From positions 623,001 through 687,000 of the forward strand of contig NZ_CP071604.1 of NCBI RefSeq assembly GCF_017357225.1: a stretch of 64,000 nt of DNA, written 5' to 3'. Below are positions 8,010 to 20,915 of the stretch, in pieces. A program made the translations under genes and the position numbers. Origin of the DNA: Rhizobium binae (lineage in GTDB: Bacteria; Pseudomonadota; Alphaproteobacteria; Rhizobiales; Rhizobiaceae). How positions within the stretch are numbered: position 1 is the stretch's first letter; every line of letters starts with the position of its first letter. The notes below the pieces were generated by a model. The model saw nothing but the letters and a program-made list of their open reading frames with translations, did no database searches and was not told the DNA's origin.

Positions 8010-8085
8010 GCCCAGGTAGCTCAGTTGGTAGAGCAGCGGATTGAAAATCCGCGTGTCACTGGTTCGATTCCGGTCCTGGGCACCA
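8010..8085 (+). tRNA. tRNA-Phe (anticodon GAA)
   Basis: 76 bases with acceptor stem GCCCAGG/CCTGGGC, D arm TAGCTCAGTTGGTAGAGCA, anticodon stem GCGGA/TCCGC around loop TTGAAAA (anticodon GAA), T arm GGTTCGATTCC and encoded CCA. A truncated IS3-type orfA begins about 70 bases downstream, and accessory genes follow. Confidence 0.96.
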
Positions 8086-8152
8086 CTCAATCCTCTATAA
8101 CTGATCTCCCATGAAAAGTATCGGATAGGCCGGCCAACAGACCGTCTGTTCA

Positions 8153-8390
8153 GAGCTTCGTGCCGCCCTTTCGTTGTCTTCGCCAGCATTTCGCTCAGCG
8201 TCGCCGCCGAGAGCCTGGATTCGGCCAAGAGCTTCTTGAGCTTCTGGTTCTCTTCCTCCAGAACTCCACATCTAATCCTTTTCGCATGGAGGCCGGCATT
8301 TCCGGACTGCGGGGATTGCCACCGATAGAAGCTCGGTTCGCTGATACCGTGCTCGTGGCAAACCGCTACCGTCACGCCGGCCTGATATTT
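8153..8390 (-). pseudogene. IS3-type transposase OrfA remnant, copy 1
   Basis: Encodes, on the minus strand, HEHGISEPSFYRW, then NAGLHAKRIR and EEENQKLKKLLAES, the helix-turn-helix and leucine-zipper parts of IS3-family OrfA proteins (IS407-like group). It is cut off at its N-terminal side at about 8390 (the first 20 or so residues of copy 2 are missing). It has a 6-base insertion and a 3-base loss relative to copy 2, and has lost the stop codon seen there, so the frame runs on into unrelated sequence. No OrfB is present. Nearly identical to the copy at 20637-20915 and in the same orientation. It abuts the DUF302 gene stop. Confidence 0.8.
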
Positions 8391-8872
8391 CATTGGCCGA
8401 CCGGTTCCGTCACCGCTTTAATGACGTCAGACGCCATCTTGAATTCCTTGTCGCGGCTGGTGATGCCGTGGCGTCGCGCGATCCAGGCAAAATCCGTGTA
8501 GGCGACGCGAACCGACCCATCCCTCGTTTTGTAGACGAGAACGCGGACCGGCCAATCGAGGCCGGCTGTGGGATTGGCAGTGATGAATGTCGTTCCGAGT
8601 GCCGGATTGCCGAACAGAATCAACCGTGAAGGCAGGACCTTGTTGCCAGCGGCCGTACCGAGAGCCGCTTGATCAATATCATCGAACAGCATGATGCCCT
8701 TCTCCGCGACATTGGCCTTGATCTTACTGACAGTCTCGTCAACCGAGTAACGGCTTTTCAGAACAACGACCCCGTCGCGCGCACCTGCCTGGGCGACTGA
8801 GGCGGGCGTTGCTGCGATTGCGGCTGCCAATGAAAGCATTGCGGTGAAGAATAGGTTGATCACTCTTTGCAT
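8390..8872 (-). CDS. Secreted DUF302 domain protein
   Basis: 160 residues with a signal peptide (FFTAMLSLAAAIAATPASVAQA, cut near residue 28). The mature part matches DUF302: VVLKSRYSVDETVSKIKANVAEKGI at the start, a DDIDQA turn, the central LPSRLILFGNP strand and the WPVRVLVYKT strand. DUF302 proteins are small periplasmic or cytosolic proteins often next to redox or metal genes; no activity is established. The stop codon sits exactly where the IS3 remnant begins, so the last codons may have been trimmed, though PVGQ is a plausible end. Confidence 0.8.
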   Translation of the reverse strand: MQRVINLFFTAMLSLAAAIAATPASVAQAGARDGVVVLKSRYSVDETVSKIKANVAEKGIMLFDDIDQAALGTAAGNKVLPSRLILFGNPALGTTFITANPTAGLDWPVRVLVYKTRDGSVRVAYTDFAWIARRHGITSRDKEFKMASDVIKAVTEPVGQ

Positions 8873-8960: not shown

Positions 8961-10163
8961 TTATGATTCTGGCGCGCTCAGCGACCCTCCGAGGAAGATT
9001 GCCGTGCCGAGTGCGGTGCTCAGGACGAGCACGCAGGCGTTCCAGCCAAGATGGTCATAGACCTGTCCGAGAGCGAGGCTGCCGATCATGCCGCCGGTAT
9101 AGTAGGATGCCAGGTAGATGCCGCTGGCACCGGCCTTGTCGCTCATCGCACGCCGGCCGATGATGCTTGTGGCAATCGCCTGCGCCAGGAAAGTGCCTAT
9201 TGCCACCAGCGTCAATCCGCCGAGGATGATTGGCAAATTTGTGCTGAGAAGCGCCACGAGGCCGAGGACGGCCATTGCCAGGGTCAAGACGATTGCCGCT
9301 TTCGAGCCGACATGGCTTGCGAGCTTCCCGGCAAACGGCGTGGTCACGATCGAAGGGAGAAAGACAAGGTAGACAAGGCCGAGCGCCATCGGCGCCACGC
9401 CCAGCGCGACGATCTGGAAGTTCACATAGGTATAGGTGCCGATGAACACGAACAGGATCAGGAAACCGATCGCGAAGACGCGGCGCAGGTCCGGATCGGC
9501 AAGGTGAACGCTCCAGATGTGCCTGGTCAGGCTGCCTCGGCTGTTCATGCGCATCATGCTCGCGGTTTTTTTGAGCGTGAACCAGACCAGGGCGGCGCCG
9601 AGGAGATTGAGTCCGGCGAATATCAGAAAGTTCAGCGAAAGGCCGCCGACGCCGGCAATAGCGGCAGACAGCATACGGCCAAAGAGATTGCTCGCGACAT
9701 TGCCGGTCACATAGGCTGCCAGGGCCCCTGCGGTCTTCCCGGAGGAAAAATGTTCAGACAGGTAGGCTGCCGTGAGCGTAAAGGCGGTCGACATGCATAG
9801 TCCCTGAAGCACCCGTAACGCTGCGAAGACGATAATGTTGTCGGTAAATGCCAGCAGCGTCGTCGGGATGGACAGAAGGGCGAGACTGATCCAGATGCCG
9901 TTGCGCCGGTCGACATCACCGCCAAAAAAAGCCACGAGCAGACCGGCGACTGCCATGCCGAATGTGCTGGCATTGACGGCAAAGCCCATCGTCGCGCGGC
10001 TCACCTGGAATCTCTCCACCAGCGAAGGCAACACCGCCTGTGCCGCGAAGAGGTCGACAAGGGTCAGGAAGGCAATAAGGGCGATCAGTCCAAATCGCCA
10101 ACTGTCCGCACGAAGTGTCTTATCTGGATGAATGGATGCGAGCGGCTGTTCGATATCGGTCAT
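8961..10163 (-). CDS. MFS transporter (YnfM-like drug exporter group)
   Basis: 400 residues with about 12 hydrophobic segments. The N-terminal half has the MFS loop 2-3 motif in altered form (GGDVDRRNGIW) and the first helix LIALIAFLTLVDLFAAQAVLPSL, resembling the YnfM/AraJ-type proton-driven exporters. The substrate is unknown. The start at 10163 (MTDIEQPL) is preferred; the frame is open 25 codons upstream but without family likeness. It lies between the DUF302 gene and the cupin gene on the same strand, which with the LysR gene may form one minus-strand group. Confidence 0.88.
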   Translation of the reverse strand: MTDIEQPLASIHPDKTLRADSWRFGLIALIAFLTLVDLFAAQAVLPSLVERFQVSRATMGFAVNASTFGMAVAGLLVAFFGGDVDRRNGIWISLALLSIPTTLLAFTDNIIVFAALRVLQGLCMSTAFTLTAAYLSEHFSSGKTAGALAAYVTGNVASNLFGRMLSAAIAGVGGLSLNFLIFAGLNLLGAALVWFTLKKTASMMRMNSRGSLTRHIWSVHLADPDLRRVFAIGFLILFVFIGTYTYVNFQIVALGVAPMALGLVYLVFLPSIVTTPFAGKLASHVGSKAAIVLTLAMAVLGLVALLSTNLPIILGGLTLVAIGTFLAQAIATSIIGRRAMSDKAGASGIYLASYYTGGMIGSLALGQVYDHLGWNACVLVLSTALGTAIFLGGSLSAPES

Positions 10164-10253
10164 TGCTGGGTTCCCCGAAGCGCGGCGATTTCGGCAATGG
10201 CCGAAAGCGCCGCAGAGTAGCTCAATGGTCTGAGTCACCGGACGTATCAGCGA

Positions 10254-10751
10254 TCACATCGCTGACACGTCGTGCATTTCCGGGCTCAAAATATCGGAGG
10301 AATAAAGCACGGCCGGAACCTTGCCGTTGTTCTTCCACCAATGGGAGAGGTGGCCGAACTCGCCGGCAACCTCGCCCGCCTTGTGCAGGATCGGCACCTT
10401 ACAGGTGCTGCGGTACTCGGTGATCGAGCCTGAGACGATCAGGATGTTGGCCGGACGCATCTCATGCGAATGCCAGGGAACGACGCCGCCCGGCTGCACG
10501 ATGAGCTTTCGCATGCGCAGCATGCTGCCCTTCCAGGCATCACCCTTGGAGGAAAGATCGATTGTTTCGAGGACGCTGTCGGTGACGCCCTTCGGCATCA
10601 TCGGGCCAGGCTTCATGCCGTCTTCGGCAACCTGATCGGCTGGGCAGTCACCGGCCAAGGCAGATGAGGCGTGCAGGCAGGAGGCGAACGTCAGCGCGTT
10701 AAAGGCGAGCATAGCCAAAGAGACTCGGCTGGTTTTGAATGAAGGCATCAT
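10254..10751 (-). CDS. Secreted cupin domain protein
   Basis: 165 residues. N-terminal signal peptide (VSLAMLAFNALTFASCLHASSALAG, cut near residue 33), then one cupin barrel. The metal-binding cupin motif is visible as GGVVPWHSHEMRPANILIVSG, with His-x-His and a following Glu; a second His lies in EFGHLSHWWKN. It probably acts in the periplasm and may bind a metal, but whether it is an enzyme or a sensor cannot be told. Two adjacent ATGs (10751, 10748) are equally possible starts, both after a GGAG-type site. Confidence 0.82.
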   Translation of the reverse strand: MMPSFKTSRVSLAMLAFNALTFASCLHASSALAGDCPADQVAEDGMKPGPMMPKGVTDSVLETIDLSSKGDAWKGSMLRMRKLIVQPGGVVPWHSHEMRPANILIVSGSITEYRSTCKVPILHKAGEVAGEFGHLSHWWKNNGKVPAVLYSSDILSPEMHDVSAM

Positions 10752-10943
10752 CGGTGGTTCTCCTTGTTGGGCTCGGCAAGATCGGTGTCGAGCATGTGTG
10801 GAGAGTGGCGGAGCGCCGATCCAAAGAGAAATGCCAGATGCTTTTGATTTCGATAGCCGTGGGCTATTGCCGATTGCCAAACAAGGACCAAAAGCCCGGC
10901 GAATTGCCAGGCGATGTTCGGCAGGGTCAGTCCGATAGGGTCG

Positions 10944-11840
10944 TTAATGCGGTCTGGTTGGCGGGGAAGCCCAGCCATAGGATTTCACGGCGCCGACAAA
11001 GACGGAAACCGCCGGCGAAAAGCGACGGCCGGCGACAGTCACGAGACAGACTTCCCGGCTGACCTCCGGCTCCGCGACGGGTCGCACCTGCAGGCCGGGA
11101 ATGACGGCGCTGTATTCAGGGATGAAGCAAATGCCCAAGCCGCCGGCTACAAGGTTCTGGATCCAGTCTTCGCGTTCGCTGGAATAGGAAACGAGCGTCT
11201 TGACACCTTGCGCATCGCAAAGATCCGAGAGGTAGTCCCAATATTCGCAGTTGACGCGACGCAGATAGACTTCGCCGTCGATCGCCGCGATGGGAATGGC
11301 GTCGTATTGGCTGAGCCTGTGGCCGGCAGGGAAGGCGAGCATGAACCTCTCGTGGAAGAGGGAGGTCACGTCGAACCGCTCCGGAAAATTCGTTGCAGTC
11401 GACATCAGCGCCACATCGATTTCGCCGGTCTCCAACAGATCGGACAGTCTCGTGGGCACGCCTTCGATCAGTTGCAGCTGGATACCCTTGTGACGCATGT
11501 TGAAGTCGGTCAGGAGACCGGTGAACCGCCGCGGCCCGATCGTACACATGATCCCGACCTTGAGATTAGCTTCGCTCAGACATAGAAATCGCGAGGCCTC
11601 CGTCCGAACGCCCATGAGCTCATCCTGAATCTGCTGGAACCGTGGCCGGAGCAGATTGCCGAGATCGGTGATATGAGTGAGATTGCGCTCTCGACGGAAC
11701 AGCAGGCCACCGACCTCGTCCTCAAGCTGCTGTATGGCGCGGCTGAGGGCCGGTTGAGTAACATTGCACTTTTCGGCCGCACGCGTGAAATTGCGTGTTT
11801 CGCAGACGGCCAGGAAATAACGTATATGATGAATATCCAT
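10944..11840 (-). CDS. LysR family transcriptional regulator
   Basis: 298 residues. The N-terminal helix-turn-helix (residues 1-60: MDIHHIRYFLAVCETRNFTRAAEKCNVTQPALSRAI, written here to mark the region) is textbook LysR, followed by the two-lobed ligand-binding domain (from about 90: ANLKVGIMCTIGPRRF). The start at 11840 gives the canonical N-terminus. It is divergent from the 3-hydroxybutyrate dehydrogenase gene across 182 bases and lies behind the cupin gene, so it may control either side. The ligand is unknown. Confidence 0.92.
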   Translation of the reverse strand: MDIHHIRYFLAVCETRNFTRAAEKCNVTQPALSRAIQQLEDEVGGLLFRRERNLTHITDLGNLLRPRFQQIQDELMGVRTEASRFLCLSEANLKVGIMCTIGPRRFTGLLTDFNMRHKGIQLQLIEGVPTRLSDLLETGEIDVALMSTATNFPERFDVTSLFHERFMLAFPAGHRLSQYDAIPIAAIDGEVYLRRVNCEYWDYLSDLCDAQGVKTLVSYSSEREDWIQNLVAGGLGICFIPEYSAVIPGLQVRPVAEPEVSREVCLVTVAGRRFSPAVSVFVGAVKSYGWASPPTRPH

Positions 11841-12022
11841 CGCTGCCCCCGGGGTGAACGCGATCTTTACTATGCTGCAAATCTCTACCGCGGCGGCATT
11901 CTCATCCAATGCCATGGATTTATCAATTCCATACCACACCGGCATTTCTAAAGTGAGCGCCGATACTCCACTGTGACTGCCATGACGCCAGAAAGTGTCG
12001 TCGATCGCAGTGGAGAGCGCAT

Positions 12023-12853
12023 ATGTTGAACGCCTTTGATCCCGAAATTGATAGTCTCGTCGGCCGCAAGCCCCTGGAGGGGCGCAGCGCCATCGTCACC
12101 GGTTCCACCAGCGGGATTGGTCTTGGCATTGCGCACGCACTTGCTCGCTCAGGTGCGGCCGTGATGTTGAACGGTTTTGGTGACCCAGCCGAGATCGAGA
12201 CGCTGCGCGCCGGCATCGCCGGCGACAACGACGTCGATGTCGCCTATGACGCGGCTGACATGGCCAAACCGGAGGCCATTCGGATGATGGTCGAGAGGGC
12301 GGTCGCGCGGTTTGGCCAGGTCGACATCGTCGTCAACAATGCCGGCATCCAGCACGTTTCGCCGATCGGCAAATTTCCGCCGGAAAAGTGGGACGCCATC
12401 CTCGCCATCAATCTCTCCGCCGCTTTTCATCTGGTGCAGTCGACATTCGACGGCATGTGCGCCAGAGGTTACGGCCGGATCATCAATGTCGCCTCGGCTC
12501 ATGGATTGATCGCATCGCCGTTCAAGTCCGCCTATGTGGCGGCCAAGCATGGCATCGTCGGCTTCACAAAGACGATCGCGCTCGAAGGTGCGGAATTCGG
12601 CGTCACATCCAATGCGATCTGCCCCGGCTATGTCTGGACGCCGCTTGTCGAACACCAGATCGAAGATCAGGCGAAGTCGCATAAGATCGCCCGAGATGCG
12701 GTGATCCGCGATGTTTTCCTGAAGGATCAACCGACCAAGCGTTTTGCCACCATCGAAGAAATGGGTGCGCTCGCGGTGTTTCTCTGCGGCGACCTTGCCG
12801 GATCGATCACCGGGACCGCTATTCCGGTCGACGGCGGCTGGACCGCGCACTGA
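12023..12853 (+). CDS. 3-hydroxybutyrate dehydrogenase (SDR family)
   Basis: 276 residues. Short-chain dehydrogenase fold with the NAD-binding motif TGSTSGIG at 26-33, NNAG near 105, and catalytic Ser158, Tyr171, Lys175 (NVASAHGL...SAYVAAKHG). The segment after the active site (AICPGYVWTPLVEHQI...) and the C-terminus TAIPVDGGW are typical of D-3-hydroxybutyrate dehydrogenases, which convert 3-hydroxybutyrate from polyhydroxybutyrate breakdown to acetoacetate. Rhizobia usually have another bdhA copy, so this may be an accessory paralogue. It is followed 29 bases later by a patatin-like gene in the same direction. Confidence 0.85.
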   Translation: MLNAFDPEIDSLVGRKPLEGRSAIVTGSTSGIGLGIAHALARSGAAVMLNGFGDPAEIETLRAGIAGDNDVDVAYDAADMAKPEAIRMMVERAVARFGQVDIVVNNAGIQHVSPIGKFPPEKWDAILAINLSAAFHLVQSTFDGMCARGYGRIINVASAHGLIASPFKSAYVAAKHGIVGFTKTIALEGAEFGVTSNAICPGYVWTPLVEHQIEDQAKSHKIARDAVIRDVFLKDQPTKRFATIEEMGALAVFLCGDLAGSITGTAIPVDGGWTAH

Positions 12854-12882: not shown

Positions 12883-13956
12883 GTGAACAAGCACATAGGA
12901 AGACAGTCTGGAATGCAGCCCGAATTTTCCGTTGCCGGGCGTGAACCACGGATGATCAATCTCGCGTTACAGGGCGGGGGCGCGCATGGCGCCTTCACCT
13001 GGGGCGTGCTCGATCGGCTGCTGGATGAGCCCAGCCTTTCTTTTGAAGGCATCGTGGCGACGAGCGCCGGCGCGATGAATGCTGCCGTGATGGCTTACGG
13101 CCTTGCCGCGGGCGGACGAAGCGGGGCGCAAAGCGCGCTCTCCAATTTTTGGCGCCGCGTCAGCCATGCGGCCGCATCGGGACCTTTGCAGCCGACTTTG
13201 CTCGACCGTCTTACTGGTTCGAAATCGCTGGAGTTCTCCCCGGCATTTATCATGTTCGACCTGGTCACCCGGCTGATGTCGCCCTACCAGTTCAACCCAT
13301 TCAACTTCAATCCCCTGCGCAAGGTGCTGGAACAATCGATCGATCTCGACGCCATCCGAATGGCGCGCTGCCCCGTCAAACTCAGCATTTGTGCCACCAA
13401 TGTGAGGACCGGCAAGGTGAAGGTCTTCGGCAATGACGAGCTCTCCATCGATGCGGTTATGGCGTCCGCCTGCCTGCCTTTCCTGTTCCAGGCGGTGGAA
13501 ATCGATGGGGAAGCCTATTGGGACGGTGGCTATATGGGAAATCCCGCAATATTCCCGCTGATCTATGGCTGCGATACGCCCGATGTCCTCGTGGTCCATA
13601 TCAACCCGATCGAAAGAGCCGACGTGCCGCGCACCGCAGGCGAAATTCTCAACCGCATCAACGAGATCAGCTTCAACTCGTCGCTGCTGAGGGAGATGCG
13701 CGCGGTGGCTTTCGTGACGCAGCTTATCGACGCCCAGATGACGCCGCCCCCCAATCTCAAGCGTGTTTTCGTGCACGGTATTTCCGACGACGACACGATG
13801 AAGAATCTCAGCGCGTCGAGCAAGCTGAACGCAGACTGGGGAGCGCTCGTGGATCTGAGGGATCGCGGCCGTGAATGCGCCGAACACTGGCTGGTCGCCA
13901 ACTACGACGACATCGGCAAACGATCGACGGTGGACATCCGCGAACGCTATCTTTGA
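12883..13956 (+). CDS. Patatin-like phospholipase family protein
   Basis: 357 residues. Patatin-type serine lipase fold: oxyanion glycine run QGGGAHGAF at 30-38, nucleophile Ser61 in ATSAG (the family usually has GTSAG, so the first Gly is Ala here) and catalytic Asp214 in DGGYMGNP. No signal peptide, so cytoplasmic. Translation starts at GTG 12883 after GGGGAGG. Pairing with a 3-hydroxybutyrate dehydrogenase suggests work on a lipid or intracellular polyhydroxybutyrate-related ester, but the substrate is not shown by sequence. A strong terminator follows at 14000-14034. Confidence 0.88.
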   Translation: MNKHIGRQSGMQPEFSVAGREPRMINLALQGGGAHGAFTWGVLDRLLDEPSLSFEGIVATSAGAMNAAVMAYGLAAGGRSGAQSALSNFWRRVSHAAASGPLQPTLLDRLTGSKSLEFSPAFIMFDLVTRLMSPYQFNPFNFNPLRKVLEQSIDLDAIRMARCPVKLSICATNVRTGKVKVFGNDELSIDAVMASACLPFLFQAVEIDGEAYWDGGYMGNPAIFPLIYGCDTPDVLVVHINPIERADVPRTAGEILNRINEISFNSSLLREMRAVAFVTQLIDAQMTPPPNLKRVFVHGISDDDTMKNLSASSKLNADWGALVDLRDRGRECAEHWLVANYDDIGKRSTVDIRERYL

Positions 13957-13999: not shown

Positions 14000-14034
14000 G
14001 AGCCCTCGTCTTTTCCAACGGGGGCTCTTTTTTT
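14000..14034 (+). terminator. Rho-independent terminator after the patatin gene
   Basis: GAGCCC at 14000-14005 pairs with GGGCTC at 14022-14027, with extra pairing inside, followed by seven T. It separates the dehydrogenase/patatin pair from the bufferin-like run. Confidence 0.85.
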
Positions 14035-14171
14035 GGATGGGATCGACTGCCGAAGCATAGAGACGGCGTATCGAAACCATGCGGAGACAGCATTTCAGAC
14101 GGAAGCAGACTTCTGGGAAAGTGAGTTGGTCAAGCCGATGGCGGTTTGACCCACCAACCAGGAGACTTCTC

Positions 14172-14441
14172 ATGAGTGCTTCACGTTTTCTTATCAGCTC
14201 GGCTATTGCTGCTGCCGCCTCCATGAGCGCCGCCAGCGCCTTTGCCGGCCCGGCTGCCAAGCCGGATTTCTCATTCGAAAAATGCTTTGGCGTCGTCAAG
14301 GCCGGCCTCAACGACTGCCAGACCGCCAGCCATTCCTGCGCTGGCACGGCGACGGCCGATAACGCGAAGGATTCGTGGATTTATATTCCGGCCGGCACCT
14401 GCAGCAAGATTACCGGCGGCAGCACCGAACCCAAGGCCTGA
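14172..14441 (+). CDS. DUF2282 protein, bufferin-like (BufA1/GigP) precursor
   Basis: 89 residues. Signal peptide [17 protein letters not shown], cut near residue 25. The mature peptide of about 64 residues has four cysteines at 38, 49, 56 and 77, in [17 protein letters not shown] and AGTCSK. This is the DUF2282 pattern of the bufferin A1 / GigP precursors, peptides exported to the periplasm whose cysteines are modified (to thiooxazole-type groups in studied cases) and which bind copper. The next two genes encode the matching modification enzymes, which strongly supports this. The start at 14172 has AGGAG upstream. Modification here is inferred. Confidence 0.88.
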
Positions 14442-14483
14442 CCCCTCTCAAGCTCTCAACTGCACATCCGAAAGGAGCAACCG

Positions 14484-15509
14484 ATGTCCAAGATATTTCC
14501 GAGCAATCCGGTACCGAACGCTGCGGGCATCGGCCTTCGCTCCCAGCATATCGGCGAAATGCTGTCCCGCCGCCCATCGGCGGGGTGGCTCGAAGTCCAT
14601 GCGGAAAATTATATGGGCGGCTCGGCGGCCGTCGATGCGCTTGAGCGGCTGCGGGAAAGCTATCCCCTGTCGATCCACGGTGTCGGCCTGTCGCTCGGCA
14701 GCAGCTCCGGTCTTGATCGCGATCACTTGGAACGTATGCGCAAGCTCTGCCTGCGTTTCCAGCCAAGCCTTGTTTCCGAACACCTTGCTTGGAGCGTTGC
14801 CGATGGCGCCTATCTGAATGACCTTCTGCCGCTGCGCTATGATGCGCAGGCACTGGCCATCGTCGCCACCAATGTCTTGCGGCTTCAGGATACGCTTCAG
14901 CGGCGCGTCTTTATTGAAAACCTCTCGGCCTATATCGCCTTCGAGGGCTCAACGATGACCGAGGCGGAATTTCTCGCCGAACTCGTCCGGCTCACCGGTT
15001 GCGGTCTGCTCCTCGACGTTAACAACGTTTATGTATCGGCATGCAATCTCGGCTTCGACGCCAAAGCCTTCATTGATCAGCTCCCGGCGCATGCCGTCGG
15101 CGAAATTCACCTCGCCGGCCATGCGGTTAACGAGGTTGAGGGCGATATCGTGCTGATCGACGACCATGGCTCCCGCGTTCCGCCGGCCGTCTGGTCACTC
15201 TATGCCTATGCGATCCGGAAAATCGGACATCGCCCCACGCTCATCGAATGGGATACCGATGTCCCCGCCCTGGACGTGCTGCTCGGCGAAGCCATGTGGG
15301 CCGATCTGCTCGGCCAATCGATCGCCTTCGAAGATCGAATGCTGGCCGCAAGGCCAGCGTCTCAGACGAGCCGGTTCGAAGCCATGGTGCTGCCGTTGCA
15401 GCCCGCCAGCACGAAGGGACCAATGCCGGCACTTGCCGCGCTGGCGACGATCAAGCCGTCCGTATTTGCCAATCATCCAAGGGCGAGGAGGAGCGGCCAT
15501 GCTTTCTGA
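14484..15509 (+). CDS. DUF692 multinuclear iron enzyme, BufB/GigA-like
   Basis: 341 residues. DUF692 is the family of MbnB and TglH, TIM-barrel enzymes with two or three iron atoms that rearrange cysteine residues in peptides. Candidate metal ligands and conserved blocks are all present: HAEN at 39-42, His65 in SIHGVGLSLG, Glu99-His100 in SEHLAWS, FIENLS near 145, DVNN at 178-181, EIHLAGH at 207-213, DDH at 226-228 and EWD at 255-257. It probably modifies the cysteines of the DUF2282 precursor encoded 42 bases upstream. Its last codons overlap the next gene by 11 bases. The C-terminal 60 residues or so lie beyond the core barrel. Confidence 0.92.
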   Translation: MSKIFPSNPVPNAAGIGLRSQHIGEMLSRRPSAGWLEVHAENYMGGSAAVDALERLRESYPLSIHGVGLSLGSSSGLDRDHLERMRKLCLRFQPSLVSEHLAWSVADGAYLNDLLPLRYDAQALAIVATNVLRLQDTLQRRVFIENLSAYIAFEGSTMTEAEFLAELVRLTGCGLLLDVNNVYVSACNLGFDAKAFIDQLPAHAVGEIHLAGHAVNEVEGDIVLIDDHGSRVPPAVWSLYAYAIRKIGHRPTLIEWDTDVPALDVLLGEAMWADLLGQSIAFEDRMLAARPASQTSRFEAMVLPLQPASTKGPMPALAALATIKPSVFANHPRARRSGHAF

Positions 15510-16281
15510 TTGCGCCCTGCAGTCGCGGATTGCCCAGGCCGTTCTGCACGGCGATCGTAGCGACGTTGCTCCGGTGTTGGCCAAGGCCGCCTTCGATCCG
15601 CTGCGCCGGTTCAACATCTACCGCAACAACACGTTCGCCTCGCTGACGGCGACCTTGATCGCGGTTTTCCCGGTCACGGTGCAGCTCTTAAGCGAAAACT
15701 ACTTTCGTTACGTTGCCGGTCTCTTCATACGCAGCAATCCGCCACAGGAGGCGCGGCTCGTTCGCTATGGTGGCAATTTCCCCCGCTTTCTGGCCGGGTT
15801 CGAAGGCATTCGTTCGATGCCCTTCATCGCCGAAACTGCCCGGCTGGAATGGATGATTGCCGAAGCGCTTGACGCGCCGGCATTGCCGGGCTGCATCTTG
15901 GAGCAGCTTGCAGACGGCGAAGCCGACACGGTTCCACAACTCTTTCTTCAGCCGTCGCTGCGTCTGCTCGTCTGTCGCTGGCCGGCACTGGAGATCTGGT
16001 CGGCGCATCAGCCGGGCGGACAGATCGGGATGCTGACGGGATTGTGCCGCCGACCTGAGCGCATCGCTTTATGGCGAACCAACGAAAGCGTGCGTTTTCT
16101 GCGCCTCGAAGCTCGGCATTTCGCATTCCTGCATGCACTGAAGAAGCGTGCAAGTCTGGAGGCGACAGTCGACCGCATCCTTTTGCGAACGCCTGATTTC
16201 GATCTCGCGACTGCCTTGAGCGGCTTGTTCGCCGAAGGCCTCGTAGCTCGCATCCGCCACATCGAACTCGCAACCAATTGA
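15499..16281 (+). CDS. DUF2063 protein, BufC/GigB-like partner
   Basis: 260 residues. The N-terminal DUF2063 domain is visible (FDPLRRFNIYRNNTFASLTATLIAVFPV and NYFRYVAGLFIRSNPP, residues 30-80), followed by a helical C-terminal half. In bufferin, gig and methanobactin-type clusters this protein works with the DUF692 enzyme and is thought to present the precursor peptide. The annotation DNA-binding sometimes given to the family is not supported by this context. The start at 15499 overlaps the DUF692 gene by 11 bases, so the two are translationally coupled. Confidence 0.88.
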   Translation: MLSDCALQSRIAQAVLHGDRSDVAPVLAKAAFDPLRRFNIYRNNTFASLTATLIAVFPVTVQLLSENYFRYVAGLFIRSNPPQEARLVRYGGNFPRFLAGFEGIRSMPFIAETARLEWMIAEALDAPALPGCILEQLADGEADTVPQLFLQPSLRLLVCRWPALEIWSAHQPGGQIGMLTGLCRRPERIALWRTNESVRFLRLEARHFAFLHALKKRASLEATVDRILLRTPDFDLATALSGLFAEGLVARIRHIELATN

Positions 16282-16293
16282 AGGATGGAAATC

Positions 16294-16767
16294 ATGACAA
16301 TGATGAACCCTGCCGCAGCGGGCCGCAAAGCCGGGATCGCCGGACTCTACGTCTCCGCGTTGGAGCGATTGAACATCCTGCCGCTCTCGCTTGTCCAACT
16401 CGTCTCCCGCCTGGCCGTCGCTCATGTCTTCTGGCAGTCATCGCAGAGCAAGCTTGCCTCCTGGCCGGCGACGGTGCAGTTGTTCACGCTTGAATACAGG
16501 CTGCCCGTCATCGATCCCGGCTTGGCCGCTGGGCTCGCGACGACGGCTGAGCTGAGCGGCTCCATATTGATTTTTCTCGGCCTGTTCTCGCGCCTTGCCA
16601 CCCTGATGTTGCTTGGCGTGATTTCGGCGATCCAGTTCCTCGTCTATCCCCAGAACTGGCCCGATCATTTGCTCTGGACCGCGCCGCTGTTGTTGATCCT
16701 GACGCGCGGAGCCGGTGTTGTTTCGCTCGACTATGTCGCCAGCCGCCTGTTTCTGAGGGAGCGCTGA
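16294..16767 (+). CDS. DoxX family membrane protein, GigT-like
   Basis: 157 residues with four hydrophobic helices (around VQLVSRLAVAHVFW, LAAGLATTAELSGSILIFLGLFSRLATLML, LGVISAIQFLVYP and LLWTAPLLLILTRG), the layout of the DoxX family. DoxX members close DUF2282-DUF692-DUF2063 clusters (gigT in Cupriavidus). Its job there is unknown; quinone-linked thiol oxidation has been suggested for DoxX relatives. The ATG at 16294 is preferred over 16285 because AAGGA at 16281-16285 is then at normal spacing. Ends 3 bases before the flavoprotein gene. Confidence 0.88.
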   Translation: MTMMNPAAAGRKAGIAGLYVSALERLNILPLSLVQLVSRLAVAHVFWQSSQSKLASWPATVQLFTLEYRLPVIDPGLAAGLATTAELSGSILIFLGLFSRLATLMLLGVISAIQFLVYPQNWPDHLLWTAPLLLILTRGAGVVSLDYVASRLFLRER

Positions 16768-16770
16768 GAC

Positions 16771-18090
16771 ATGCGTATCACGGTAGAGGAGGCCGATAGC
16801 GGTTCGCCTGCGATCAATCGGAATGCTTTCAAGGCAACAATTCGCCGTCAGAAGGTGGTCATCCTCGGGGCCGGATTTGGCGGTCTTGCCGCGGCTATGG
16901 GACTCCGCCATGCGGATGTCGATGTGACGGTCATTGACCGGCGCAACTACCATCTTTTCCAGCCTTTGCTCTACCAGGTGGCGACAGCCGGGCTTTCTCC
17001 GGCGCAAATTGCCATGCCGATCCGCCGCATCCTCTCGCGACAAGCCAATGTCACCGTTCTGATGGAGCGCGTCGAAGGGATCGACAAGGAGGCCCGGATC
17101 GTCCAGACGGCCAACCGCCGCATTGCTTACGACTATCTGATCATCGCGACAGGCGCCAGGCACGCATATTTCGGCAATGATGAATGGGCGGAGACAGCAC
17201 CCGGATTGAAGACGATCGCCGATGCCACCGAAATCCGCGCCCGTATTCTGTCGGCCTTCGAACGCGCCGAGGCTGCCGAAGATCAGGCCGACCGCGAGCG
17301 CTTGCTCACATTCGTCGTCGTCGGCGGCGGCCCGACCGGCGTTGAGCTGGCAGGCGCCATTGCCGAACTGGCGAAAAAAGTCATCGTTCGCGATTTTCGA
17401 CGCATCGACTCGTCCTCCGCGCGCGTTGTCCTGGTCGAAGCCGGTGGAGTCGTCCTGCCCGCCATGCCGCCGAAACTGTCAGAGAAAGCCCGGCGGCACT
17501 TGGAGATGCTTGGCGTCGAGGTACTTCTTAAGGCGGCGGTGACGCGCTGCGATGTTCAAGGTGTCACACTTGCCGATGGGCGGGAAATTCAATCATCCTG
17601 TGTGCTGTGGGCGGCCGGCGTCATGGCTTCCAAAGCAGCGAAATGGTTAGCCGTGCCTGCCGATCGCGCAGGCCGCGTCCATGTCGACCGAAATCTTAAT
17701 CCGCCAGGCAACGATGACATCTTCGTAATTGGCGACACCGCGGCGGTGACGGATGAAAGCGGCCGGGCAGTTCCGGGTGTCGCGCCGGCCGCCAAGCAGA
17801 TGGGCGAGCACACAGCACGCGCTATTCTCGCCAATATTGACGGTCGGGCCGTCGGGCCGTTCCGCTACCGTGATTTTGGCCGTCTGGCGACGATCGGGCG
17901 CAAGGCGGCGGTTGCCGACTTCGGGCGAATCCGGCTGTCGGGTTTGGGTGCCTGGCTGGTGTGGAATATCGCGCATCTTTGGTTTCTTGTCGGTTTCCGC
18001 AATCGCGCCGCGGTCTTCGTGGATTGGGCCCTGGCCTACGTTCGCTATGATCGCAGTGCCCGTCTGATTACCGATCGCCATGAACGCTAG
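16771..18090 (+). CDS. Type II NADH dehydrogenase-like flavoprotein
   Basis: 439 residues. Two Rossmann motifs: FAD site at 31-38 (ILGAGFGG) and NAD(P)H site near residue 180 (VVVGGGPTGVELAGA). HLFQPLLYQVATAGLSPAQIA is the quinone/FAD-side block of NDH-2 enzymes, and the C-terminus has the amphipathic and hydrophobic membrane anchor (LGAWLVWNIAHLWFLVGF). It probably passes electrons from NADH to quinone at the inner membrane without pumping protons. An N-terminal extension of about 25 residues precedes the fold. It starts 3 bases after the DoxX gene and overlaps the next gene by 11 bases, so it belongs to the bufferin-like run. Confidence 0.88.
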   Translation: MRITVEEADSGSPAINRNAFKATIRRQKVVILGAGFGGLAAAMGLRHADVDVTVIDRRNYHLFQPLLYQVATAGLSPAQIAMPIRRILSRQANVTVLMERVEGIDKEARIVQTANRRIAYDYLIIATGARHAYFGNDEWAETAPGLKTIADATEIRARILSAFERAEAAEDQADRERLLTFVVVGGGPTGVELAGAIAELAKKVIVRDFRRIDSSSARVVLVEAGGVVLPAMPPKLSEKARRHLEMLGVEVLLKAAVTRCDVQGVTLADGREIQSSCVLWAAGVMASKAAKWLAVPADRAGRVHVDRNLNPPGNDDIFVIGDTAAVTDESGRAVPGVAPAAKQMGEHTARAILANIDGRAVGPFRYRDFGRLATIGRKAAVADFGRIRLSGLGAWLVWNIAHLWFLVGFRNRAAVFVDWALAYVRYDRSARLITDRHER

Positions 18091-19939
18091 GGCTTTCCCA
18101 CGGGTTAAAATGGGACGCGCAGTCACCGCGTTGCTGTTGCTTGCAGTGTTGTCCACGGCAGCGCTTGTCCATCTGGTCTGGTATCGCACGGCCACCCAGA
18201 ATGTCGAAACGGTTGTCGCCAGCCTCGACGCCCAAAGCACCGCCGCCGTCCGCAATGCGCTGACCTCAAATCTGGCGCTGGTATCCAGCAGCGCGGAAAT
18301 CGTCAGATCGGTTTTTTTTCAGGGCGCGGTCCGGCCAGACGACGAAGTCAAGCGTGAGTTCCTGTTCCTGTCGCTGCTGCGCGAGCAGCCGGCGATCGCC
18401 TGGATCGGGTTCGGCTTCCCGGATGGCCGTTTCTTTGGCTCGCACGCGATGCCGGACGGTGAGATCGAAATGGTGGAGATTGGCGCAGCGGCGCCGGGAA
18501 AGCCGCGCCCGTTGCGCCGTGATCTCTATAAGCCAATACCCGGTGATATCTTCTTCGAGAACCGCCTGAAGTCCGAAAGCGTCTATGTCTCGGAGGGTTC
18601 GCCGTGGTATCGGCGCGGCAGCATGAGTACGGAAGCGGCCTGGACTGTCGTCAGCATTTTGCCCAATGGCTTCGAGCCGGCGATTGTGGTTTCCAAAAGG
18701 GTTGAAGCCTTCAAACATTTCGAAGGCGTCGTGATGGTGGCGGTCAGTCTGAATCGGCTGTCGGCCACGCTTTCCGCACTCAAAGTTCCGAAAGGCAGCA
18801 AGGCCTTCCTCCTCGCCAGAGACGATATGGTATTGGCGACATCAGAACCATCCGATGGTGGCGTGGCGGCTCATCTCAAGGATTTCCCTCCATCCGATGC
18901 ACTGGCTGCAGCGGTCGCCACCGCGGCGACTCGCGACCAGGTCGACAGCTTCCGGACGCAGGTCGACAGCAAACTCCTCGGTCCGGTCTTCGTGTCGTCG
19001 GGTAAGTTGCCGTTCGAAGATTGGCGGCTGGTCACCGCGATACCGCGAGCGACCTTTGCCGGCGATATCGATGCCAATACCGAGCGCGTGATCTTCATCA
19101 TCGGCGCCATCGCATTGCTCGCAGCAGTGACTGCGATCCTGTTTGCCAGGACGCTCTTCACTCGACCACTGTCTCGCCTTGCCGGGCAACTGCACCTGAT
19201 CGAGAGGTTCGAACTCGAGGCCGTTGAGCACCGGCCGGCGCTGCTGGCCGAACTCGACGATTTCTCGTTCGCGCTGAAACGCATGTCGAGTGGCCTTTCC
19301 GCCTTTGCACGCTTTATGCCGATCGAGGTCGTTCGTCCGCTTGTCGATGGCGGCATCGAGCCTCGTCCGGGCGGTGAACTGAGGGAAATAACCGTCCTGT
19401 TTGCCGATTTACCCGGCTTCACGGAGCTGACCGAAGAGCTCGGCAGCGGCGTCGAGCCGAGCCTGACCCGCTTCCTGACCTCGTCGATCGCCGCCATTCA
19501 TGCCGAAGGCGGTACGGTCGACAAGTTCATCGGCGATGCGGTGATGGCAATCTGGAATGCGCCAAATGACGAACCCGATCACGCATTGCGTGCGTGTCGT
19601 GCCGCAGCCGCAATCCGTGACGCCATGCACGCCATGCCTCCCATCGCGTCGAAGCACGATGCCATTCGCGTGCGTATCGGCATCAATAGCGGCGTGGCGC
19701 TTGTCGGCAATATTGGCTCAGCAGAAAGGCTGAGCTACACGGCGATCGGCGACGTCGTCAATCTCGCGAGCCGGCTCGTCGGTGCCGCGAAGGAAAAGGG
19801 CGTGGAGATCGCGCTGAGCGACGAAACGTTCCTCAGGACGCGAGGCCATATCCATGCAAGATTGCTGGGAGCAGTAGACATTCGAGGAAAGACTGCGCCA
19901 GTATGCGTGCATACGATCGATCCAAGCGGGAGCAGGTAG
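18080..19939 (+). CDS. Transmembrane adenylate cyclase, class III
   Basis: 619 residues: first membrane helix at about 13-34, a periplasmic sensor domain of about 300 residues, second membrane helix near 337-360, a short linker, then a class III cyclase domain from about 430. Metal-binding Asp residues are visible in LFADLPGFTEL and in DKFIGDAVMAIW; the Lys before FIGD and the Asp in YTAIGDVVNLASRL are the residues that choose ATP over GTP. It should make cyclic AMP in the cytoplasm in response to something sensed in the periplasm. Its start lies inside the end of the flavoprotein gene (11-base overlap), an unusual partner for a cyclase. Confidence 0.9.
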   Translation: MNARAFPRVKMGRAVTALLLLAVLSTAALVHLVWYRTATQNVETVVASLDAQSTAAVRNALTSNLALVSSSAEIVRSVFFQGAVRPDDEVKREFLFLSLLREQPAIAWIGFGFPDGRFFGSHAMPDGEIEMVEIGAAAPGKPRPLRRDLYKPIPGDIFFENRLKSESVYVSEGSPWYRRGSMSTEAAWTVVSILPNGFEPAIVVSKRVEAFKHFEGVVMVAVSLNRLSATLSALKVPKGSKAFLLARDDMVLATSEPSDGGVAAHLKDFPPSDALAAAVATAATRDQVDSFRTQVDSKLLGPVFVSSGKLPFEDWRLVTAIPRATFAGDIDANTERVIFIIGAIALLAAVTAILFARTLFTRPLSRLAGQLHLIERFELEAVEHRPALLAELDDFSFALKRMSSGLSAFARFMPIEVVRPLVDGGIEPRPGGELREITVLFADLPGFTELTEELGSGVEPSLTRFLTSSIAAIHAEGGTVDKFIGDAVMAIWNAPNDEPDHALRACRAAAAIRDAMHAMPPIASKHDAIRVRIGINSGVALVGNIGSAERLSYTAIGDVVNLASRLVGAAKEKGVEIALSDETFLRTRGHIHARLLGAVDIRGKTAPVCVHTIDPSGSR

Positions 19940-19945
19940 CGCGAC

Positions 19946-20341
19946 ATGGCTATTGATTGCCTCCTCCTGACAAGTCTCGTTTGGCTGCAGATCAAGCATT
20001 TCGTGGCCGATTACGTGCTGCAGCCTGCCTGGATGATAGGAGGCAAAGGCGATTTCAGGAAACCGGGGGGATATGTCCACGCAGGCATTCACGCGGCCGC
20101 CACTCTGCCAATCCTGTCGTTATCAATGCCATTCCCGATGTGGAGTGTCGCTGTTGCGGCCGGCGAGTTTCTGGTTCATTTCCTAATCGATCATCTCAAA
20201 GCCGTTCACGGTCGCCGTCATCCTTGCGCAGTGAATGCGCGTTCATTCTGGATACTGCATGGTAGCGATCAGCTCGCGCATCACCTGACGTATTCGATGA
20301 TTTTGACCGTGGTAGCCTGGCAAAATTATCTCAATGTTTGA
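19946..20341 (+). CDS. DUF3307 membrane protein
   Basis: 131 residues, hydrophobic. The typical DUF3307 pattern is seen: HFVADYVLQPAWM near residue 20, GGYVHAGIHAA near 45, EFLVHFLIDHLK near 75 and a C-terminal DQLAHHLTYSMIL. Conserved His and Asp residues in or near the membrane helices are characteristic, and their function is unknown. It starts 6 bases after the cyclase gene and ends the seven-gene run. Confidence 0.85.
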   Translation: MAIDCLLLTSLVWLQIKHFVADYVLQPAWMIGGKGDFRKPGGYVHAGIHAAATLPILSLSMPFPMWSVAVAAGEFLVHFLIDHLKAVHGRRHPCAVNARSFWILHGSDQLAHHLTYSMILTVVAWQNYLNV

Positions 20342-20636
20342 AAAATGCAGGCGACCGGGGCAGACGACCGCGAGGTCATGCGGTCGGCCTGGGTTTACAG
20401 GTCCGGACCAGAAACCACCCACCTCTCAAGCTCGCCTGAAACGCAGGGCGATGGGAATGAGGCAGAGGCGTTCTTAAAGGTGGCCGCGGTGTTCTCTGCA
20501 ATGCCGGGTGCAGATCTTGCCTTTTCTCCCGTCCCTGCTCGGGAGGCCGAGCCTCCCGCTCCATGGGTCGAGCTCTCGGGTTCTCCTGCCCGTGCGGTCG
20601 TCGAGTAGGGCAGCCAAAAGCCCCTTTGTTCAGAGG
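20342..20636. other. Gap before IS3 remnant, no gene supported
   Basis: A frame of 87 codons is open on the plus strand at 20345-20608, but its product has no recognisable domain and unusual composition. The stretch may be leftover mobile-element sequence next to the IS3 remnant. No terminator is obvious. Confidence 0.4.
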
Positions 20637-20915
20637 TTAGTGCCGCCCTTTCGTTGTCTTCGCCAGCATTTCGCTCAGCGTTGCCGCCGAGAGCATGGAT
20701 TCGGCCAAAAGCTTCTTCAGCTTCTGGTTCTCTTCCTCCAGGGCTCTAATCCTTTTCGCATGGAGGCCGGCATTTCCGGACTGCAGGGATTGCCACCGAT
20801 AGAAGGTCGGTTCGCTGATGCCGTGCTTGTGGCAAACATCCGCCACCGTCACGCCGGCTTGGTGTTCCTTCAGGATGCCCGAAATCTGGTCGTCGTCATA
20901 TTTTCGCTTGCCCAT
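20637..20915 (-). mobile_element. IS3-type transposase OrfA, copy 2 (orphan)
   Basis: 92 codons with intact start (20915) and stop (20637): MGKRKYDDDQISGILKEHQ, a helix-turn-helix (DVCHKHGISEPTFYRW), then a leucine-zipper segment (ALEEENQKLKKLLAES). This is the OrfA half of an IS3-family (IS407-like) transposase. The catalytic OrfB half is missing, and the upstream end of the element is cut off within a few bases of the start, where the HlyD gene ends. It is therefore a remnant unable to move alone. Same orientation as copy 1 at 8153-8390. Confidence 0.82.

Follow-up and report, generated by a model that had tools for sequence, protein, structure and literature searches.

Bufferin Cassettes Described to Date and the Rhizobium binae Locus

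Bufferins form a large group of copper-binding peptides that was described only recently, and little is known of the signalling and metabolism around them. Their Buf1 (DUF2282) gene clusters comprise a four-gene core, which is accompanied by additional conserved genes "in extremely low proportions" (Antoine et al. 2025, PMC12452194). Here, we analyze a variant cluster of Rhizobium binae, in which a run of seven genes (positions 14172–20341) joins a Buf1 cassette to a type II NADH:quinone oxidoreductase (NDH-2), a receptor adenylate cyclase and a DUF3307 membrane protein. The run is located in a stretch of 64,000 nucleotides (contig NZ_CP071604.1 of assembly GCF_017357225.1, positions 623,001 to 687,000), hereafter the window, whose first letter is position 1. 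Like the clusters of that survey, the window contains a precursor with four Cys and a signal peptide, an MNIO enzyme, a DUF2063 protein and a DoxX protein. The main text of the survey contains neither "NADH" nor "DUF3307", and "cyclase" only in its references, while its supplementary neighbour tables may list such genes (PMC12452194).

Other described systems share parts of this arrangement. A 2017 paper on Legionella lists, without functional inference, the L. pneumophila H4 cluster lpg0671-0676, which like the window encodes homologues of the four gig genes, an NADH dehydrogenase, a DoxX domain and an adenylate cyclase (PMC5413113). In that cluster, likened here by its description, the DoxX domain is instead part of the dehydrogenase protein, an acetoacetate decarboxylase is present, and the genes lie on mixed strands and form no operon. 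Hence the statement of an earlier note on this DNA, that no version with a cyclase had been described, was not quite right; besides the Legionella cluster, no other published bufferin–cyclase cluster was found in an open-access library, and the part of PMC4653623 that was seen contains nothing on this locus. The Cupriavidus gig operon (gigPABT) shares the same four core genes and, as listed in PMC5413113, has no NDH-2, cyclase or DUF3307. Within the Rhizobiaceae, the DUF692/DUF2063 cassette SMb20527-20530 of S. meliloti is under RpoE7, of the extracytoplasmic function sigma factor group ECF16, and represents a described case of an ECF16-controlled cassette; its sigma and anti-sigma genes carry neighbouring locus tags, and the unit as listed includes neither NDH-2 nor cyclase (PMC6180224).

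The extension of the Buf1 cassette in R. binae is real and conserved, and a mechanism is proposed for it below. What is new here is a cis-element common to three promoters of the locus, by which the seven-gene operon is probably one arm of an island controlled by a LysR-type regulator, together with a bdhA–patatin unit and a cupin–major facilitator superfamily (MFS) unit.

The Seven-Gene Run

The run opens with bufA (14172–14441), which encodes the Buf1/DUF2282 precursor (Pfam 84.9 bits, cut-off 22.4). It has four Cys residues and a signal peptide judged by eye; among 75 precursors compared, window included, 74 have exactly four Cys and one has five, and the Cys spacing pattern is present in all of them. 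Next to it, bufB (14484–15509) encodes the MNIO (DUF692) maturase (NCBIfam MNIO_BufB 366.9 bits, cut-off 310), followed by bufC for the DUF2063 partner protein (15499–16281; Pfam 66.8 bits, cut-off 27.2) and by the DoxX family membrane protein gene (16285–16767; Pfam 50.8 bits, cut-off 23.6). The NCBIfam models HvfC and HvfX match this cassette below their cut-offs. The extension consists of NDH-2 (16771–18090; Pyr_redox_2 175.2; NDH2_C 34.5, cut-off 27.7), the class III receptor adenylate cyclase with a dCache sensor (18080–19939; Pfam Guanylate_cyc 68 bits, cut-off 21.9) and the DUF3307 membrane protein (19946–20341; Pfam 43.6 bits, cut-off 23).

All seven genes are on the forward strand. 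The MNIO and DUF2063 genes overlap by 11 bases, as do those of NDH-2 and the cyclase, and gaps of 3, 3 and 6 bases separate DUF2063 from DoxX, DoxX from NDH-2 and the cyclase from DUF3307. The codirectional run with its gaps of 3 and 6 bases and 11-base overlap, as the earlier note gave it, is therefore exact to the base, and its recognition as a gig/bufferin-type (Buf1) cassette followed by NDH-2, cyclase and DUF3307 is supported by the Pfam and NCBIfam matches and by conserved linkage. The strongest terminator-like site in the stretch scanned, a forward-strand stem of 10 pairs with a T-run (14000–14027), is found between the patatin gene and bufA and not within the run, and a similar stem with T-run was seen by eye in most of 18 aligned relatives' rows, with L157, L158 and L169 as exceptions (L and G numbers denote loci and genomes of this analysis). 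Since this hairpin separates the patatin gene from bufA, the operon probably begins at its own promoter before bufA. The bufferin cassette is probably transcribed together with NDH-2 and the receptor cyclase.

Conservation of the Cassette–Cyclase Linkage

When named genomes were scanned with an alignment of N-terminal cyclase sequences, 79 loci were obtained, in 75 of which the same receptor cyclase type lies at most 10 kb from a bufferin cassette. No bufferin gene was found in the remaining four, each of which lacks 10 kb on one side, because of contig ends in L159, L174 and L175 and with 4.9 kb in L178. The order bufA-MNIO-DUF2063-DoxX-NDH-2-cyclase (A>B>C>X>N>Y; "type 1") is found in 28 of the 79 loci, from Rhizobium, Sinorhizobium/Ensifer, Mesorhizobium, Taklimakanibacter and metagenome-assembled genomes. 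The cyclase is divergent from bufA in 38 loci, mostly of Bradyrhizobium, and precedes bufA codirectionally in five; three loci show other orders and one is a shortened type-1 locus. These loci are not independent events; L163, L164 and L165 are three contigs of one S. terangae genome with the same match positions (a repeat or an assembly effect). The order from bufA to the cyclase is kept in other genera at about 41–77% protein identity, so the linkage is above chance. In those type-1 loci, the DoxX–NDH-2 and NDH-2–cyclase junctions are equally tight, the earliest starts being 0–3 bases away or overlapping in most of 14 rows (for L153, a second NDH-2-like match distorts the value). DUF3307 is the loosest member, present in 24 of the 28 full-order loci and missing in four. 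The conservation of gene order among rhizobia that the earlier note proposed to check is thus seen for the first six genes, with the reservations that DUF3307 is loose and that NDH-2 is not part of Bradyrhizobium-type loci. The last three genes are not unlinked in relatives, which was one half of the outcome that the note named as contrary to its idea; their linkage is conserved and recurs in different arrangements.

In a less selected sample, the 28 places with cyclase matches at E <= 1e-100 outside the own genome, 17 cyclases were within 10 kb of bufferin genes; G948 became the eighteenth when the stretch was extended, with a bufA relative 9.9 kb away, and six of the other ten places are cut by contig ends. 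Several of the 79 loci lie on contigs that also belong to the less selected samples (e.g., L178 and G649, L153 and G064). Thirteen genomes contained 23 MNIO genes and at least 313 cyclase domains, and all 14 cyclases of this family (E <= 1e-100) were within 7 kb of an MNIO gene; these genomes had been chosen mostly with the linkage known, and the linkage claim is based on the 10-kb counts above instead.

In the bacterial family of R. binae, the cyclase (E <= 1e-60) is present in 8 of 199 genomes; it was absent from three other genomes of the genus that were sampled, and from two more in a second sample. Close bufA relatives (E < 1e-33) also occur in 8 genomes, seven of them shared with the cyclase set and the eighth, G089, represented by a 7-kb contig only. 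The complete series patatin-A-B-C-X-N-Y is found in six other genomes (L048, L049, L050, L052, L054 and L055), with DUF3307 next after the cyclase in five, while the sixth stops at a contig edge.

The MNIO tree was built from 44 chosen rows by a quick method with branch support from the approximate likelihood ratio test (SH-aLRT) only, and it carries a long-branch warning (L299, L307, and L112-L116 meeting L299). A branch (SH-aLRT 95) separates type 1 from the rest, and L177 and L128 join type 1 (86); type 2 is intermixed with ordinary cassettes, and a third set, L112, L114 and L116, lies far apart in a Buf2-type lineage. In these three loci, a related cyclase adjoins a Buf2 (BufA2) cassette: the precursors of L112 and L114 exceed the BufA2 cut-off of 60 with 86.5 and 85.1 bits, and that of L116 is similar by eye. 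The L114 cassette contains tandem precursors, DsbD_TM, a DoxX-like protein and a DUF255 thioredoxin protein. As one cyclase type is found beside several bufferin lineages and in several layouts, descent as a single block is not an easy explanation.

A Shared Promoter Element and a Probable LysR Island

The bufA promoters of type 1 share the element TATCGAAACCATGC-N7-GCATTTCA about 94–124 bases upstream of the start; the distance is 200 in L169, whose assigned start may be late. In the window, this operator-like element, TATCGAAACCATGC-N7-GCATTTC, occupies positions 14069–14096 of the forward strand, 75 bases before the bufA start. A second copy lies in the lysR–bdhA intergenic region (11921–11948, forward strand), 74 bases before bdhA, and a weaker one with 2 mismatches (10828–10855, reverse strand) precedes by 76 bases the Met codon at 10751 of the cupin gene. 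The core ATGC-N7-GCATTTC is present in 29 of 29 type-1 promoters (window included), in one of 46 other cyclase-linked promoters (L177) and in none of 23 unlinked Rhizobiaceae cassettes.

A matrix built solely from 22 bufA sites of the 29 type-1 rows, near-duplicates omitted, was tested on the 21 loci with a bdhA match; over whole loci, the best second site fell between lysR and bdhA in 18 of them. Scores in the window were 52.2 at bufA, 20.0 at the lysR–bdhA site (11921) and 6.5 for the next site. The only exact matches in the own genome are the bufA and lysR–bdhA promoters, and the matrix scan did not find the element before its second bufferin cassette. Across nine genomes, 13 of the 14 places with up to one mismatch belong to this locus; with two mismatches there are 3–12 matches per genome against 0–3 in the reversed control, most of the further ones being scattered and probably due to chance. 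Nineteen genomes of the family without the cyclase gave no exact match and four single-mismatch matches. In a scan of 15 further loci, the element was detected before bufA in L177, L223, L104 and weakly L128, and before bdhA in L177, L299, L191 and weakly L128.

The conserved unit is larger than seven genes, for a bdhA–patatin pair, lysR and a cupin–MFS pair upstream recur with it. On the forward strand, bdhA (12023–12853) encodes 3-hydroxybutyrate dehydrogenase (NCBIfam TIGR01963 356 bits, cut-off 307) and precedes the gene of a patatin-like phospholipase (12952–13956; Pfam). On the reverse strand lie the LysR-type regulator gene (10944–11840; Pfam, start chosen by eye), the exported cupin (longest open reading frame 10257–10880, likely start 10751; Pfam 27.8 bits, cut-off 27.2), the MFS transporter (8961–10238; Pfam) and a DUF302 protein with a signal-peptide-like start (8390–8872; Pfam). 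The MFS, cupin, lysR, bdhA and patatin genes recur with the cassette in distant loci, and DUF302 does so in 29 surveyed loci. Independently annotated genes of an R. sophoriradicis plasmid have the same order, with the cupin annotated as such, and the S. fredii NGR234 plasmid record has the full gene order. Moreover, bdhA, mostly with patatin, lies beside bufA, NDH-2 or the cyclase in the differently ordered loci L118, L125, L126/L223, L128, L177, L191 and L299.

The sequence ATGC-N7-GCAT has the T-N11-A shape that we take to be typical of LysR operators. From this shape and the conserved lysR gene divergent from bdhA, we infer that LysR is the candidate reader of the element and controls the island. 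As the element is common to three promoters, the seven-gene operon is probably one arm of that island.

Other cassettes appear to be regulated differently. An ECF16-like motif (GTAAC-N15-18-CGAA within 300 bases upstream of bufA) occurs in none of the 29 type-1 promoters, window included, which in this respect are unlike the Buf1 clusters of PMC12452194, and in 12 of the 23 cassettes without cyclase linkage, against 0.085 expected from shuffles. The own genome carries a second, ordinary four-gene Buf1-like cassette on contig C2 (L232, 9512–12016), in which an ECF16-like motif lies 81 bases ahead of the precursor gene.

Receptor Cyclase and NDH-2

The cyclase residues D443, K482, D486, T554, N561 and R565, which we assume to be the two metal-binding Asp, the substrate-binding Lys and Thr, and the transition-state Asn and Arg, are invariant in 30 of 30 cyclases. 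The predicted structure (pLDDT 83, pTM 0.55) comprises a long N-terminal helix, a periplasmic domain, a second long helix and a catalytic domain, the last modelled with the CyaC fold at a template modelling score (TM), target-normalised, of 0.83. Modelled alone (pLDDT 89.6), the sensor adopts the double Cache fold of chemoreceptors and kinases, with TM of 0.45–0.61 (query) to the 50 listed structure matches, many of which are Cache sensors; among the listed dCache structures, many were solved with amino acids or other small organic ligands. Pfam dCache_1 scores 25.5 bits in the window, under the cut-off of 45, and 51.9 in the Bradyrhizobium relative L189. Given these matches and the scarcity of Cys in the sensor, the cyclase more probably senses a small organic ligand than copper. 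Direct copper sensing, for which H122 (26/30) and M131 (30/30) are the only conserved possible metal ligands that stand out and no Cys is conserved, is left open and not favoured.

The operon NDH-2 resembles a true NDH-2, with the flavoprotein fold and the NDH2 C-terminal domain, and matches PDB 9mqy, "NADH:ubiquinone reductase (non-electrogenic)", with 362.8 bits, so that its activity is predicted from sequence. It is an extra copy, since the own genome has a second NDH-2 with 55% identity to it. NDH-2 enzymes contain no iron–sulphur clusters and copper damages such clusters, which leads to the idea of a respiratory bypass. As a marker of cassettes, NDH-2 was of no use: no other cassette gene lay within 1.5 kb in 27 of 30 loci, nor within 20 kb for two of these, L299 being an exception.

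Proposed Function and Alternative Explanations

That this set is kept together in many related bacteria suggests one stress-response unit. We consider it about evenly balanced whether the locus is a variant bufferin cluster whose operon belongs to a LysR-controlled island of about three transcription units, namely bufA-B-C-doxX-ndh-cya-DUF3307, bdhA-patatin and cupin-MFS-DUF302. According to this proposal, BufA would be exported, its two central cysteines being made into thiooxazoles by BufB with BufC, and would buffer periplasmic copper, as predicted from the families. LysR would bind the element and switch on all units under metal-linked stress. BdhA could then oxidise stored 3-hydroxybutyrate to yield NADH, whose electrons NDH-2 would pass to quinone when copper harms Complex I, while the dCache domain of the cyclase would read a small periplasmic ligand and report the state of the envelope as cyclic AMP (cAMP). 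The role of NDH-2 electron flow and cAMP in metal handling is one that we infer. In such a variant, the buffering of metal would be connected with respiration, the use of storage carbon and cAMP, and one of the many rhizobial receptor cyclases would gain a concrete context. It offers a testable setting, with a dedicated cis-element, a candidate LysR, a receptor cyclase and NDH-2, in tractable rhizobia, e.g., Sinorhizobium fredii NGR234.

Several observations weigh against this proposal. The sensor domain has no Cys in 29 of 30 cyclases, and direct copper sensing is therefore doubtful. NDH-2 is absent from Bradyrhizobium-type loci, and in four places of the less selected sample (G086b, G211, G294 and G674) no bufferin gene is found nearby, within about 9 kb or more on each side. 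The best second site of the element is not between lysR and bdhA in 3 of the 21 type-1 loci, neither bufA nor bdhA showed the element in L118, L125, L126, L183 and L198 among the 15 further loci, and the link between LysR and the element is based on position and on the T-N11-A shape. Finally, the ECF16-like motif is present in 35 of the 46 other cyclase-linked promoters.

A possible, though less probable, alternative is that NDH-2 and DoxX serve peptide maturation or metal reduction, with the cyclase as a side sensor: NADH would supply, via quinone, the electrons that maintain the proper redox state of the MNIO iron site, the peptide thiols or copper. DoxX belongs to the bufferin core (PMC12452194) and immediately precedes NDH-2 in type-1 loci, L128, L177 and L126, and in Legionella the DoxX domain and the NADH dehydrogenase form one protein (PMC5413113). 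However, NDH-2 does not adjoin DoxX in L191, L299 and L118, is outside the bufferin core (PMC12452194) and is absent from the open reading frame list of the second cassette, L232; the last two points indicate that it is not generally needed for maturation.

Of similar, limited plausibility is an island devoted primarily to a 3-hydroxybutyrate or organic-acid response, in which LysR and the dCache receptor would read an organic acid and the bufferin would protect against metal freed or bound in that condition. This would agree with the recurrence of bdhA, mostly with patatin, in differently ordered loci, with the shared element, with the acetoacetate decarboxylase of the Legionella cluster (PMC5413113), and with the small organic ligands of many listed dCache structures. 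Nevertheless, no bdhA match was found, within the stretch examined, in 32 of the 38 divergent, mostly Bradyrhizobium rows.

Rather unlikely, in our view, is the more ambitious possibility that the dCache cyclase is a dedicated receptor that converts the state of the bufferin into cAMP, in combination with a LysR switch to an iron–sulphur-free NADH route fed by 3-hydroxybutyrate. The state read could be the apo peptide, a processed fragment or a ligand that tracks the bufferin. If true, the locus would encode a second-messenger system that is coupled to a metallophore and includes its own respiratory bypass, and in which metal loading of a periplasmic ribosomally synthesized and post-translationally modified peptide is translated into cAMP.

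A little less likely again is that the cyclase is a local switch that takes the place which the ECF16 sigma factor and its anti-sigma have in ordinary Buf1 clusters. The motif is indeed missing from all type-1 promoters and present in about half of the cyclase-unlinked cassettes counted above, including the second cassette of the own genome, but motif and cyclase co-occur in most other cyclase-linked promoters, so that the replacement would hold only in part; moreover, the type-1 promoter has a LysR-like element, and no obvious CRP site was seen by eye, without a dedicated CRP search. Lastly, a neighbourhood conserved by descent or joint transfer with no joint function is very improbable: the window copy does lie beside a tRNA gene and between two insertion sequence (IS) relics, and the cyclase is found on 17 Rhizobium or Sinorhizobium plasmid records, but the same genes occur in different orders and strands and with several MNIO lineages, and the shared element is nearly confined to this locus in nine genomes.

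Surroundings of the Island and Related Loci

The left edge of the island is marked by tRNA-Phe (8010–8085). Two IS3-like orfA relics, named by eye, flank the island in the same orientation (8126–8381 and 20606–20858) and share 89% identity over 259 bases. A search for an attachment repeat of the tRNA end, allowing up to 3 mismatches, found none. The sensor half of the cyclase matches 18 plasmid records, 17 of Rhizobium or Sinorhizobium and one of Ruegeria at 31%.

In another alphaproteobacterial family, L299 (5735–11478) combines a Buf1 cassette with NDH-2, bdhA and a patatin-like match, in the order h N p A B C X; it has no cyclase and carries the shared element before bdhA. Many Bradyrhizobium loci among L192-L222 (e.g., L195, 13424–13990) have a second cyclase domain some 2–6 kb, rarely farther, from the first. 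A spread outside Alphaproteobacteria was considered and set aside: with the sensor alignment, a related sensor turned up in seven genomes belonging to a single genus, with no bufferin gene in the stretch. In L254-L259, a related sensor domain is part of frames of about 1400 residues, two long ones of which resemble hybrid kinases by eye, and a separate cyclase domain lies a few kb from these sensor frames.

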